A stretch of 43,134 nt of DNA from the NCBI RefSeq assembly GCF_016888165.1, contig NZ_JACSWC010000312.1, positions 1 through 43,134 on the forward strand. The letters run 5' to 3'. The translations under genes and the position numbers were made by a program. Below the pieces are notes generated by a model. That model made no database searches and was not told the DNA's origin. It saw only the letters and a list, made by a program, of their open reading frames with translations. The stretch is from Halomicronema sp. CCY15110. Its GTDB lineage: Bacteria; Cyanobacteriota; Cyanobacteriia; Phormidesmidales; Phormidesmidaceae. Shown piece after piece: positions 12,386 to 17,409 of this stretch; position 1 is the first letter of the stretch, and every line of letters begins with the position of its first letter.

Positions 12386-13240
12386 TCACGGAAATGGTTC
12401 AGGATGCGATTCATGCTCCACTTCAAAGACGTGACCATACAGGCTAGAAAGGATCTGTTTGCCCTCTTGGGTAAGTTTCAAGTGCGCGATCGCATCCTTA
12501 ATAAAGGGGTACACCGTCTTCCAGTAAAAGCGGGGATAGTTGCGCCGCAAATCTTCGGGGTGACGATAGCCCAACTGCTGGTTGACGCCCGTTTCTTCAA
12601 ATTCATAAAACAGGGCGGGAATTTTGTGCAAATAGCGCGGATCGGACAGTTGCCCGATCAGGTCAGCGGCTCGCACTAACCCCGGAAACTCCACCGTGTC
12701 TTGGTGATCCCCATCGAAGGGCACCGGAAACCGGGTGAGTTCAATATTGCTTTTGATAATTTCCGCATCAATTAAACTGTGCCCCCCAAAGCGTTCTTCG
12801 ACAAAGCGCTTGCCGCGATCGACATGGTAGGGCGTGAGACTAGCGTCGGTGTGCCCTTCGGGAAACTGCACCGTCTCCTCGTCATTTTTACCCGTGGCAT
12901 AGGTTCTCGCCGAAACGACGTCCCGACGACAGACACCTTTGACATAGCCAATATCGTGACAGACGAGCGAGATGGTGAAATGGAGCCAATCTTCGCACGA
13001 GACCCGGCCCTCGCGAATGTGCTTGCCCCGCAAAATTTGCTGCCCCACCAATGTGACAAAGATGGCGTGCTCCACATCGTGATACAGGGCATTGCTGTTG
13101 GCAATGGTTTCCACCCCCATGTTGCCCACCCACGCAATGATATCAGCGTAGTCAGGCTTTAACCCGCCATAGGTTTGGGTGTAGTTAGACCGCAGCTCAG
13201 CCACAAAGGCATTGCCGAGAAGCTTGTTGGGGTTGATCAT
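12386..13240 (-). CDS. HD-domain metal-dependent phosphohydrolase
   Basis: The protein has 284 residues. The metal-binding pattern is visible as YHDVEH (His54, Asp55, His58) and CHDIGY (His95-Asp96), the core of an HD-type domain. The first motif, Y-H-x-x-x-H-A, resembles class I cyclic-nucleotide phosphodiesterases (YHNxxHAxDV) more than the usual HD-GYP or RelA patterns. The C-terminal half is helical and ends in an acidic tail. No sensor domain is attached. The likely role is hydrolysis of a nucleotide or phosphate ester; cyclic-nucleotide hydrolysis is a guess. No operon partner is evident. Confidence 0.8.
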   Translation of the reverse strand: MINPNKLLGNAFVAELRSNYTQTYGGLKPDYADIIAWVGNMGVETIANSNALYHDVEHAIFVTLVGQQILRGKHIREGRVSCEDWLHFTISLVCHDIGYVKGVCRRDVVSARTYATGKNDEETVQFPEGHTDASLTPYHVDRGKRFVEERFGGHSLIDAEIIKSNIELTRFPVPFDGDHQDTVEFPGLVRAADLIGQLSDPRYLHKIPALFYEFEETGVNQQLGYRHPEDLRRNYPRFYWKTVYPFIKDAIAHLKLTQEGKQILSSLYGHVFEVEHESHPEPFP

Positions 13241-14257: not shown

Positions 14258-15202
14258 CTAACTCGCCGATAATGTCACACAGGGTTCGCCTTGACACTGA
14301 TTCACCTCCACCAACACATGGGAAAGGGTCGGAATGTGAGCCAGTAATTGTTTATAGTCGGTCGGTGATTTGGGATCGTGCGTCACGAGTGAAATCGTTG
14401 CCGCCAAATGATTTTGGTCGAGATACCAAACATGTAAGTCGGCAATGCGATTATCCGCATCGGCCTCAATGGATGAAATGATGTCACGCTTCACCCGCTT
14501 GTCTACCGCACCATCCAGCAGCACTGCACTCGTATCTTGGAGCAGCCCATAGGCCCATCTCGTAATGACGATCGCCCCAACGATGCCCATCAAGGCATCC
14601 AGCCACACCCACCCGAAAAATTTGCCCGCAAACAACGCGACGATCGCAAACACCGATGTGAGGGCATCGGCGATGACATGAAAATAGGCTGCCCGGAGGT
14701 TCTGGTCTGGCGCATGAGGGTGATGATGATCATGACCACCATGATGATCATGGTCGTGCAACAACCAGGCACTGGCTAAATTCACCACTAGCCCCAAAGT
14801 AGCGACCCCAATGGCCTCATTAAACAGAATTGGATGGGGACTAAAAAACCGCTCTACGGATTCAAACGCCATCAAAAAAGCCACCACGGCTAGCGCCACC
14901 GCACTGGCAAAGCCCCCCAAAACACTCACCTTACCCGTGCCAAACGTATATTTTGGGTCGCCTGCATGTTGGCGCGCATAGCGATACGCAAAGATTGTGA
15001 TGCCAAAGGCCGCGACATGCGTTGCCATATGCCAACCATCGGCTAACAAGGCCATCGACCCAAAGAGGGTACCCGCGATAATTTCTGCCACCATCATGGC
15101 GGCGGTGAACCCCATTACGATGAGGGTATTTTTCTCGGCATGGCGCTGATGCGTTGCGAAGTTGTGCCGATGCTGCCATTGCTCCAATGTATGGATATGC
15201 AT
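14258..15202 (-). CDS. dmeF: Cation diffusion facilitator metal exporter, DmeF type
   Basis: The protein has 314 residues from ATG 15202, chosen because AGGAG lies 4 bases upstream; a longer frame to 15241 lacks one. Six membrane helices are expected. Transport-site motifs ADGWHMATH (helix 2) and HVIADALTS (helix 5) match DmeF/Co-Ni-type CDF members. Between helices 4 and 5 is a His/Asp-rich loop (HDHDHHGGHDHHHPH), a cytoplasmic metal-binding segment. The C-terminal regulatory domain contains the typical DLHVWYLDQNH strand. The role is proton-driven efflux of divalent metal, probably Co, Ni or Zn. No metal-sensing regulator gene is adjacent. Confidence 0.93.
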   Translation of the reverse strand: MHIHTLEQWQHRHNFATHQRHAEKNTLIVMGFTAAMMVAEIIAGTLFGSMALLADGWHMATHVAAFGITIFAYRYARQHAGDPKYTFGTGKVSVLGGFASAVALAVVAFLMAFESVERFFSPHPILFNEAIGVATLGLVVNLASAWLLHDHDHHGGHDHHHPHAPDQNLRAAYFHVIADALTSVFAIVALFAGKFFGWVWLDALMGIVGAIVITRWAYGLLQDTSAVLLDGAVDKRVKRDIISSIEADADNRIADLHVWYLDQNHLAATISLVTHDPKSPTDYKQLLAHIPTLSHVLVEVNQCQGEPCVTLSAS

Positions 15203-15240
15203 AAAACTCCTGTGGTGTTTGGTAGACAGACTTCCTGCCA

Positions 15241-15284
15241 CAGCCTGAGTGACTTCTATGGTTAAAAAATGGTTGAACAGGCTG
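15241..15284. other. Weak inverted repeat upstream of dmeF
   Basis: CAGCCTG (15241-15247) and CAGGCTG (15278-15284) form a 7-bp inverted repeat with a 30-base spacer in the dmeF leader. It could be a regulator site or chance. I could not fit it to a NiCo or other metal riboswitch. Confidence 0.25.
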
Positions 15285-15349: not shown

Positions 15350-17035
15350 TTACCGAGTCGATAGTTGCGAGGGGACTGTCCGCCACAGTTCTTCTAGCTT
15401 GTTGGCGGGAATGGTGAGGTACAGCACATCTTGGTTGTCTAGCGTGTAAGAAAACAGGTCAAACCCGTGGAGGGCTCCCTGGGGGGTCTGAATGTATAGC
15501 GGCACCAGATCCGCTTCTTGGGCAATGTCTGCCACCCGTTTGCCAAAAAAGGTATGCCCCGGAGTGATCAAGGTACCCAGCGCAACCCACAAACTCTGAC
15601 CAGTCATCCCGCTGCCCAGCACTTGGCCCCCTAGCGCGGCGGCGGCAAACGAAGGGGCCGCTAATTCGGTAGGACTCAGCACTTGCTCGAACTCAAACAC
15701 TTGCTGCACTTGGCGGGCAAAGTTGGGGTCTTGATTGCGCACCACAATGGGCAACTGATGGGCGAGGCTCTTGGCCGCTAGCGCAATTTCGAGGTTGCCG
15801 GTGTCGTAACTGGTCACCGCCAGTAGTCCGGTAGCGGTGGTAATGCGGGCCTCTTTGAGGGTATCGGGCAGGCTGGCATCGCCCACAATCACGGGAATTT
15901 TGAGCGCACGAATGCTGTTGACAAAACGCCCTTGGGCGTCGCGTTCGATGACGACGACATCGTGGCCACCCAATTTGAGCTGACGGGCAATTTGAAAGCC
16001 CACGCCCCCCAGCCCACAGACAATGTAGTGGTGACGTTGCGGCAATTGCACCGCATTCCACACTTGATGAAAATGCGTGCCTAACACCAAGTCATTCAAC
16101 AGAGCATAGAACACCCCAATGACCCCGGCTCCCACCAGCATCATGATGGCGGTAAATATTTTGATGGCGACGGGAGCCTGCTCGGCGACTTCTTCGTGAC
16201 CGCCCGCACCCGTCAACATGCCCACGGTGAAATACAGGGCGTCGGCGATCGCGATATTGAAGTTGACGCTGATGTAAATCAGGGTGGCCGCCGCGATTAA
16301 TAAAAATAAAACGAGGGTAATAGCCAGCGCCGCCTGACTCTGTCGCCGAAATTGGCGTAAACCGGCCAAAAAACTGCGAATTCGTCGTTCCCAGGTGAGG
16401 CGCTGCATTCTGCCGGGGGAGGGTCGGGTCGCGATGATGAGGCGATCGCCCACGGCCAGTTTGTGATCTTGGAGCACCGCCGAGACCAAATCCACCTGCT
16501 GATGGGCGGCTTGGTAGTAGATCAACATGCGATCGCGGTTTTCCCATAGATGTCGCAGCAACACCCCATTCCAAGGATGGTTGCCATCGATCAATTCTTC
16601 GTACATGGGCCAGTTGCGCCCCATCAAATCAATCTGGCCGATGGCCGCATTGCCCAAGGCGGCATAGGCAAAGATGGGGCCAGACAACGCCGACACACTC
16701 ATGGAAACGTGATACGAGAGCGTTTGATCCAGACGGCTGCCCAGCCCCTCATTGAGGAGTCGGTTAATAATGAGAAGGCGCGGATTCAGCACGCGCGCTT
16801 GGGTCAAAATCGCCAAATTCAGGGCATCGTCTGAGGTCATCAAGAGCAAGGCGGAAGCATCGTGGATGCCTGCTTGTACCAAGACGTCGGGCGATCGCAA
16901 ATCGCCGACCACCACATGCTCTTCGTCGATGGGCTGCGAGCTGATGCCAATCACCTGCGCACCCTGCTGCCGCAACAGCGAAAAAACCCAATACCCCGTA
17001 TTTCCTAACCCACAGACAATAATTTTTGGCTTCAT
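15350..17035 (-). CDS. RCK-2TM-RCK channel-like protein with abnormal selectivity filter
   Basis: The protein has 561 residues from ATG 17035, which puts the first Rossmann strand at the N-terminus; a TTG at 17098 would add 21 residues. Order: TrkA-N domain with GLGNTG (9-14), TrkA-C-like segment, basic linker, first membrane helix (about 236-257), pore region ALYFTVGMLTGAGGHEEV (about 266-283), second helix (about 290-317), then a second TrkA-N domain with GLGGVG (341-346) and TrkA-C. This is a two-RCK potassium channel layout. The filter normally reads TVGYG but is TGAGG here (275-279). It may conduct another ion, be gated differently or not conduct. Both RCK nucleotide loops are intact, so ligand sensing is probably retained. 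Confidence 0.85.
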   Translation of the reverse strand: MKPKIIVCGLGNTGYWVFSLLRQQGAQVIGISSQPIDEEHVVVGDLRSPDVLVQAGIHDASALLLMTSDDALNLAILTQARVLNPRLLIINRLLNEGLGSRLDQTLSYHVSMSVSALSGPIFAYAALGNAAIGQIDLMGRNWPMYEELIDGNHPWNGVLLRHLWENRDRMLIYYQAAHQQVDLVSAVLQDHKLAVGDRLIIATRPSPGRMQRLTWERRIRSFLAGLRQFRRQSQAALAITLVLFLLIAAATLIYISVNFNIAIADALYFTVGMLTGAGGHEEVAEQAPVAIKIFTAIMMLVGAGVIGVFYALLNDLVLGTHFHQVWNAVQLPQRHHYIVCGLGGVGFQIARQLKLGGHDVVVIERDAQGRFVNSIRALKIPVIVGDASLPDTLKEARITTATGLLAVTSYDTGNLEIALAAKSLAHQLPIVVRNQDPNFARQVQQVFEFEQVLSPTELAAPSFAAAALGGQVLGSGMTGQSLWVALGTLITPGHTFFGKRVADIAQEADLVPLYIQTPQGALHGFDLFSYTLDNQDVLYLTIPANKLEELWRTVPSQLSTR

Positions 17036-17409
17036 TGAGTAATAGAACGCACGATGTGGGAACACCGCATCCATCTTTGTAATAGTGTCTAGGGGCAATC
17101 TAAACGTGTTGTAGCGTTTGATACATCTACTTACTTTTTAGGCCGCTTCCATGAATCGTGGCGCAGGGGCGATCGCCCGTAAGTCCACTTCCACAGCTAG
17201 TCCTTAAATCTAGCGCTTAAATCCAGCGGAAATAGCCTGCCGTAAACTCCCAACCCGCCTCCAGAAGCGGTTGGCTGGCAAATTCGCTGCCCCTGATCGG
17301 TGTGTAAGTGGTCGCCCCACGACTCCCCTCCACCCTTGCTAGTCTACGGGGCGCGCGGCATTCACGATCAGGGAAATCACGCTTTGGACATCCCGCCAAC
17401 CGAGAAGAC
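17036..17409. other. Spacer between the channel-like gene and sbcC
   Basis: I see no gene with support, no tRNA and no clear terminator for sbcC in this stretch. The right part (17300-17409) reads openly on the plus strand, but only as a shadow running into sbcC. Confidence 0.45.

Follow-up and report, generated by a model that had tools for sequence, protein, structure and literature searches.

A gene of Halomicronema sp. CCY15110 encodes a protein that is laid out like a two-RCK potassium channel and lacks the TVGYG signature, the textbook mark of a K+ channel. Is such a protein still a channel, and if so, what might it conduct? We addressed this question within a window of 43,134 nucleotides, the whole stretch of DNA that was analysed, and by comparison with relatives in other genomes.

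Architecture of the channel-like protein

The gene encodes 561 residues from an ATG at 17035, and an in-frame TTG upstream at 17098 is a possible alternative start that would give a longer protein. Pfam recognised TrkA_N (RCK) in two stretches, one at each end of the chain, and hydropathy placed two stretches in the membrane, at about residues 231-264 and 283-319, which together bear out the RCK-2TM-RCK layout proposed by a first-pass annotation of this DNA. According to Pfam and an AlphaFold2 model, one RCK domain is placed before TM1 and the other after TM2, and a unit of M1, pore helix, filter and M2 is found by both hydropathy and the model. Ion_trans_2 matched residues 242-315 weakly, with an E value of 0.019 that lies below the curated cut-off in Pfam. 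The N-terminal RCK consists of a Rossmann lobe, with the loop GLGNTG, and a C-terminal subdomain, and the stretch ALYFTVGMLTGAGGHEEV begins at residue 266. The features are as follows.

15350..17035, minus strand: RCK-2TM-RCK gene, 561 aa from the ATG at 17035, TAA stop included
16421..17029, minus strand: N-terminal RCK, about residues 3-205 (TrkA_N; AlphaFold2; PDB matches to TrkA and GsuK)
16265..16333, minus strand: TM1, about residues 235-257 (hydropathy; AlphaFold2 helix 210-257)
16211..16249, minus strand: pore helix, residues 263-275 (AlphaFold2; the D-A-L-Y-F start is common to the canonical relatives L064 and L065)
16199..16213, minus strand: TGAGG, residues 275-279, an invariant run in 59 aligned orthologues
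16193..16210, minus strand: G-A-G-G-H-E, residues 276-281, probably in register with T-V-G-Y-G-D of K+ channels
16181..16183, minus strand: E285, acidic in 105 of 105 orthologues
16082..16171, minus strand: TM2, residues 289-318, with G302, G307, Y310, A311 and D315 invariant in 59 orthologues
15386..16033, minus strand: C-terminal RCK, about residues 335-550, with loop GLGGVG and acid E364 (Pfam, AlphaFold2, conservation)

A motif scan found neither T.G[YFL]G nor G[YF]G anywhere in the 561 residues. The reported absence of TVGYG is thus confirmed, and a normal filter elsewhere in the chain is ruled out. The gene is single-copy in the Halomicronema genome, where the next matches are 27-30% identical. 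The same genome has six other Ion_trans_2 matches, and the filters of four of these read TTVGYGD, ATVGFAE, FGVGYGE and SIGYGA.

Conservation of the TGAGG motif

The first-pass annotation had asked whether TGAGG is conserved across cyanobacteria. We sampled 386 genomes within the phylum and scored up to three candidates per genome. At least 105 of these genomes gave a match at E 1e-30 or better. Orthologues, at 47-100% identity, are present in at least 94, and the remaining 11 of the 105 matching genomes have paralogues or distant relatives only. A scan of named genomes with short peptides of the 561-aa protein, which picks up close relatives only, added 12 loci, giving a set of 106 in which species may overlap between the two sources. 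One locus, L047, is a fragment without the pore, leaving 105 orthologues in which the pore can be read. TGAGG is present in 104 of these 105, far more often than chance would give, and is therefore conserved among the orthologues surveyed. The sole departure, TGASG in L067 (G385:C1:124641-126197), is counted as that of a decaying copy because in-frame stops are reported in its gene. The 104 motifs are written with 87 distinct 15-base strings, and all four codons are used at each of the five positions. A sequencing error, which TVGYG at the aligned site of homologues was proposed to betray, is ruled out because TGAGG recurs so widely and with such varied codons.

The named-genome scan returned cyanobacterial records and one record titled Candidatus Gracilibacteria (L043), whose orthologue nests among the cyanobacterial ones in the tree; this record may be misbinned. 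In two loci of one genus (L086 and L142, from G033 and G045), the matches break at about residues 175-181, in the C-terminal part of the first RCK, where roughly 50 extra residues lie in a continuous open frame. Another orthologue, L087 (G133:C75:4666-6346), appears as two adjacent matches split at about residue 288, the result of a frameshift or assembly error.

Alignment A2 comprises 59 orthologues; it predates L100-L142 and leaves aside the partial or broken L038, L047, L067 and L087. Invariant residues occupy 71 of the 561 positions in this alignment, and only in TGAGG do three or more of them follow one another. Column conservation averages 0.56 across TM1 and 0.68-0.76 across the RCK parts. 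Directly after the motif, residue 280 is variable (57 N, 25 K, 14 Q, 7 H, 1 L and 1 Y among 105), residue 281 is E or D in all 105, and residue 285 is likewise always acidic (103 E, 2 D). Neither K292 nor D315 varies among the 104 orthologues that are readable there. In a tetramer, E281 and E285 would together contribute eight carboxylates close to the outer mouth. The acid that follows the filter in K+ channels is packed behind the filter, and E281 therefore need not face the pore.

This pattern bears on the possibility that the protein is a non-conducting RCK membrane sensor, whose pore fold would be a scaffold relaying nucleotide or ion binding, or else a silent subunit that assembles with other channels. 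Simple loss of conduction would be expected to relax the filter, whereas here the filter is the most constrained stretch and the acids after it and the TM2 glycines are fixed. We prefer a conducting pore to a silent sensor because filter conservation is so strict, and we consider a sensor role, the main alternative, unlikely.

Register of the filter

The pore aligns without gaps over 51 residues with those of three relatives, L064, L065 and L066 (19, 20 and 11 identities, respectively), and this pairs T-T-G-[YF]-G-D of the canonical relatives with G-A-G-G-H-E of the query. Pairing TVGYG with TGAGG, as the first-pass annotation had done, requires two gaps and scores 60, 70 and 48 for L064, L065 and L066, compared with 79, 87 and 54 for the gap-free register. 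If gaps are left uncharged, the best of 200 placements of the TVGYG = TGAGG pairing reaches 82, 92 and 70 for the same three relatives and wins, so alignment scores alone are not absolute. The gap-free register is supported by the predicted structures, since in the models of both the query and L066 the pore helix stops at the equivalent Thr (275 and 289, respectively). Alignments by phmmer to MthK and to the NaK-type chain 3tcu introduce single gaps within the filter, which results in a further pairing. Taken together, the lower scores under ordinary gap charges and the pore-helix ends disfavour the TVGYG = TGAGG register, and T-V-G-Y-G-D probably corresponds to G-A-G-G-x-[E/D]. Thus the loss of the K+ signature stands, but the replacement first proposed was probably off by one residue: where canonical K+ channels have a TVGYG-type filter, GAGGx stands at the aligned place.

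In this register T75, V76, Y78 and G79 of the K+ signature (KcsA numbering) are all replaced, which speaks for a silent pore. A changed filter can mean no conduction, because a single change of GYGD to GAGD in a K+ filter is reported to abolish the current (PMC2853561). The register also bears on whether the protein could still be selective for K+, its unusual filter achieving this by other means. Its kin carry TTTGYGD, TTTGFGD or TVGYGD, and two features of GYGD, its central Gly and its acid, are retained; however, the Thr hydroxyl site is lost and the last filter Gly is now a variable N, K, Q or H. We regard K+ selectivity as highly improbable.

Predicted structure of the pore

The AlphaFold2 monomer model was built from alignment A3 of 59 sequences (41 orthologues and 18 more distant relatives) and reached a mean pLDDT of 85 and a pTM of 0.74 over the 561 residues. 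The predicted order is an RCK lobe, TM1, the pore helix (263-275), a loop (276-280), a short helix (281-286), TM2 (289-318) and an RCK lobe. Confidence at the filter is moderate in this monomer model, with 10-residue block means of 73 and 70; the canonical control, L066, also modelled as a monomer, has a block mean of 61 there. After the pore helix the query is predicted to have a five-residue loop followed by six helical residues, compared with an eight-residue loop followed by three in L066, a contrast that is suggestive only because model confidence is low in this region (block means 61-73).

Relatives and origin of the filter

Relatives from another class of the same phylum carry canonical filters, namely TTTGYGD in L064 and L065, TTTGFGD in L066 and TVGYGD in L146. 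Ion_trans_2 reaches its cut-off in all four, unlike in the query. L066 is a canonical member of the RCK-2TM-RCK architecture since it has two TrkA_N stretches together with a significant Ion_trans_2 match, whereas in L064, L065 and L146 Pfam recognises the C-terminal RCK alone. In a quick, unrooted maximum-likelihood tree of 52 proteins, the 28 sampled TGAGG orthologues form one side of a single branch with an SH-aLRT of 100. The deeper branching order is unsure because the outgroup branches are long in this quick tree. We infer that the canonical filter came first, in which case a whole clade would have swapped TVGYG for a sequence more tightly constrained than the remainder of the protein. 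Set beside this clade, the two-RCK L066 and the relatives with one recognisable RCK, which keep TVGYG-like filters, offer a natural before-and-after pair for the filter change.

A second cyanobacterial family of RCK-2TM-RCK paralogues (L048-L063, for example L052:264-2258 on the plus strand) has open frames of 565-780 aa and 23-32% identity to the query; both members scanned, L052 and L063, have two TrkA_N stretches. These long paralogues share the phylum with the query but differ in their filters and form a separate group in the tree, with weaker support (75). All 16 examined read LGGYGD, LGGYAD, LGGYSD, IGGYDN, LGGYDN, TGGYGD or LGGFGD, that is, seven spellings in 16 proteins compared with the near-invariant TGAGG of the orthologues.

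Other relatives were found on actinobacterial plasmids. Three from Streptomyces (L095-L097) have two TrkA_N stretches and the pores MGDPA, IGDPA and INEPA, and one from Rhodococcus (L094) has one recognised RCK and the pore TVGPAPA. Among the 31 matching records of a plasmid search, no relative spanned 80% of the query. The channel group seems prone to filter change, because these actinobacterial proteins carry yet other pores; such non-canonical pore loops also lend some weight to the sensor explanation.

Nucleotide-binding motifs of the RCK domains

Both nucleotide-binding loops had been described as intact. Both glycine loops are indeed present, and most orthologues keep them; the closing acid of the motif, however, is kept in the second RCK only. 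Among the 59 aligned orthologues, the glycines of the second RCK are conserved in 59 (G341), 52 (G343) and 58 (G346), and the acid at position 364 is E or D in all 59, so that this domain has the full GxGxxG...D/E motif. In the first RCK, G9, G11 and G14 are found in 52, 57 and 59 of the 59, respectively, and the acid is not conserved, being D in 32 orthologues and Ser in the Halomicronema protein.

Genomic neighbourhood

A metal exporter had been reported beside the channel gene, and a Pfam match confirmed it downstream:

14258..15241, minus strand: Cation_efflux protein (metal exporter)

Beyond the exporter, on the same strand, lies a gene for a YchJ/SEC-C protein, and upstream of the channel gene is one for an SbcC-like ATPase. 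With 0 to 5 kb of flank per locus, a search of 40 other loci gave an exporter-like gene in L036 alone and a SEC-C gene in five (L007 and L036-L039). A conserved operon with the metal exporter is ruled out by this single recurrence. Neighbour families were built from ORFs of at least 90 aa by blastp at E 1e-12. In 30 loci, mostly with 5 kb flanks and several with one short flank, no ORF family other than the channel occurred in more than four. The metal exporter is thus an incidental neighbour, and no recurring partner gene emerged in these 30 loci, which also counts against a sensor that would act through one.

Promoter-like matches were at chance level (three observed, 2.6 expected), and terminator-like matches were above it (13 observed, 3.5 expected); none of the minus-strand terminator-like matches falls in the gap between channel and exporter. 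The window also contains, at 12386-13240 on the minus strand, a gene whose 284-aa product matches no Pfam family at E 0.001. This product is conserved in L036 and L039, at 87-92% identity, and in L007 over the part that the flank covers.

A candidate RCK-gated cation channel

The reading that we favour, with a probability of roughly 0.6, is that of a cyanobacterial cation channel, tetrameric and RCK-gated, whose ancestors were K+ channels and which has given up the K+ filter. Four subunits would share one 2TM pore and form a cytosolic gating ring of eight RCK domains, to which each would contribute one N-terminal and one C-terminal RCK. Binding of an adenine-type nucleotide, most likely in the C-terminal RCK, or of an ion would exert a pull on TM2 that opens the gate. 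K+ selectivity should go because the filter lacks the Thr hydroxyl, the aromatic side chain and its final glycine, and G-A-G-G-x with an invariant acid just outside may form a shorter, wider and hydrated pore. Such a pore would pass cations with little preference for K+, possibly including divalents, and the fixed acids right after the filter would suit cation entry.

A broader proposal, which we put forward tentatively, is that these proteins form a widespread cyanobacterial class of RCK-gated channels, defined by their own GAGGx-[E/D] filter and a short second pore helix and serving nucleotide-linked entry of a non-K+, perhaps divalent, cation. If this were true, cytosolic nucleotide state would be tied to the entry of a cation other than K+. 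In either form, the protein is a candidate regulated channel for cations other than K+ in cyanobacteria. A literature search, mostly of non-subscription papers, gave titles and abstract openings that do not mention an RCK-2TM-RCK protein with TGAGG.

Comparison with known channels

Foldseek ranked TrkA and GsuK at the top, with MthK next, and a PDB search with a profile of alignment A2 matched GsuK, TrkA, MthK and NaK-type chains. MthK has one RCK per chain. Its pore and following RCK align with query residues 232-458, but its filter is TVGYG. GsuK, among the best sequence and fold matches, resembles the query in having a pore and two RCK domains per subunit and the GxGxxG...D/E motif. PMC3510474 describes GsuK as a K+ channel whose two RCK domains lie in tandem; ADP or NAD+ opens it and Ca2+ inhibits it. 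The query differs in that one RCK lies ahead of TM1, so that tandem RCKs after the pore are lacking, and in its GAGGx filter.

The plant nuclear channels CASTOR, POLLUX and DMI1, a group characterised by Ca2+-selective, Ca2+-activated conduction, likewise gate a pore that lacks TVGYG with a ring of RCK domains. CASTOR is Ca2+-selective, with the filter AD[SA]GNHA, in which D265N abolishes the current (PMC6697748). The query might accordingly be a channel for Ca2+ or another divalent that works as these do, given its two RCK domains, its small-residue filter (TGAGGxE against AD[SA]GNHA) and the two fixed acidic positions just past it. Yet the AD[SA]G motif with its essential Asp is absent from the chain. 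The equivalent of D265, set by eye against the seven-letter motif only, is residue 276, which is Gly in 105 of 105 orthologues, and the abstract describes the two RCK domains of CASTOR as tandem. The protein therefore stands outside the CASTOR/POLLUX group by filter and by layout, and we think it improbable that the protein works in this way.

The NaK and NaKTs channels, which conduct monovalent cations without selectivity, offer another parallel for the preferred reading of a cation channel without the K+ filter. Chain 3tcu shares the pore start DALYF(S/T)V with the query. NaKTs has a K+-channel-related pore domain with a changed filter, LPMGNGPLSP, and is non-selective (PMC5052707); it differs from the query in being a simple 2TM protein with other filter letters. 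Overall, the 561-aa protein belongs by its architecture among the RCK-gated 2TM channels and is set outside the canonical K+ channels by its filter.
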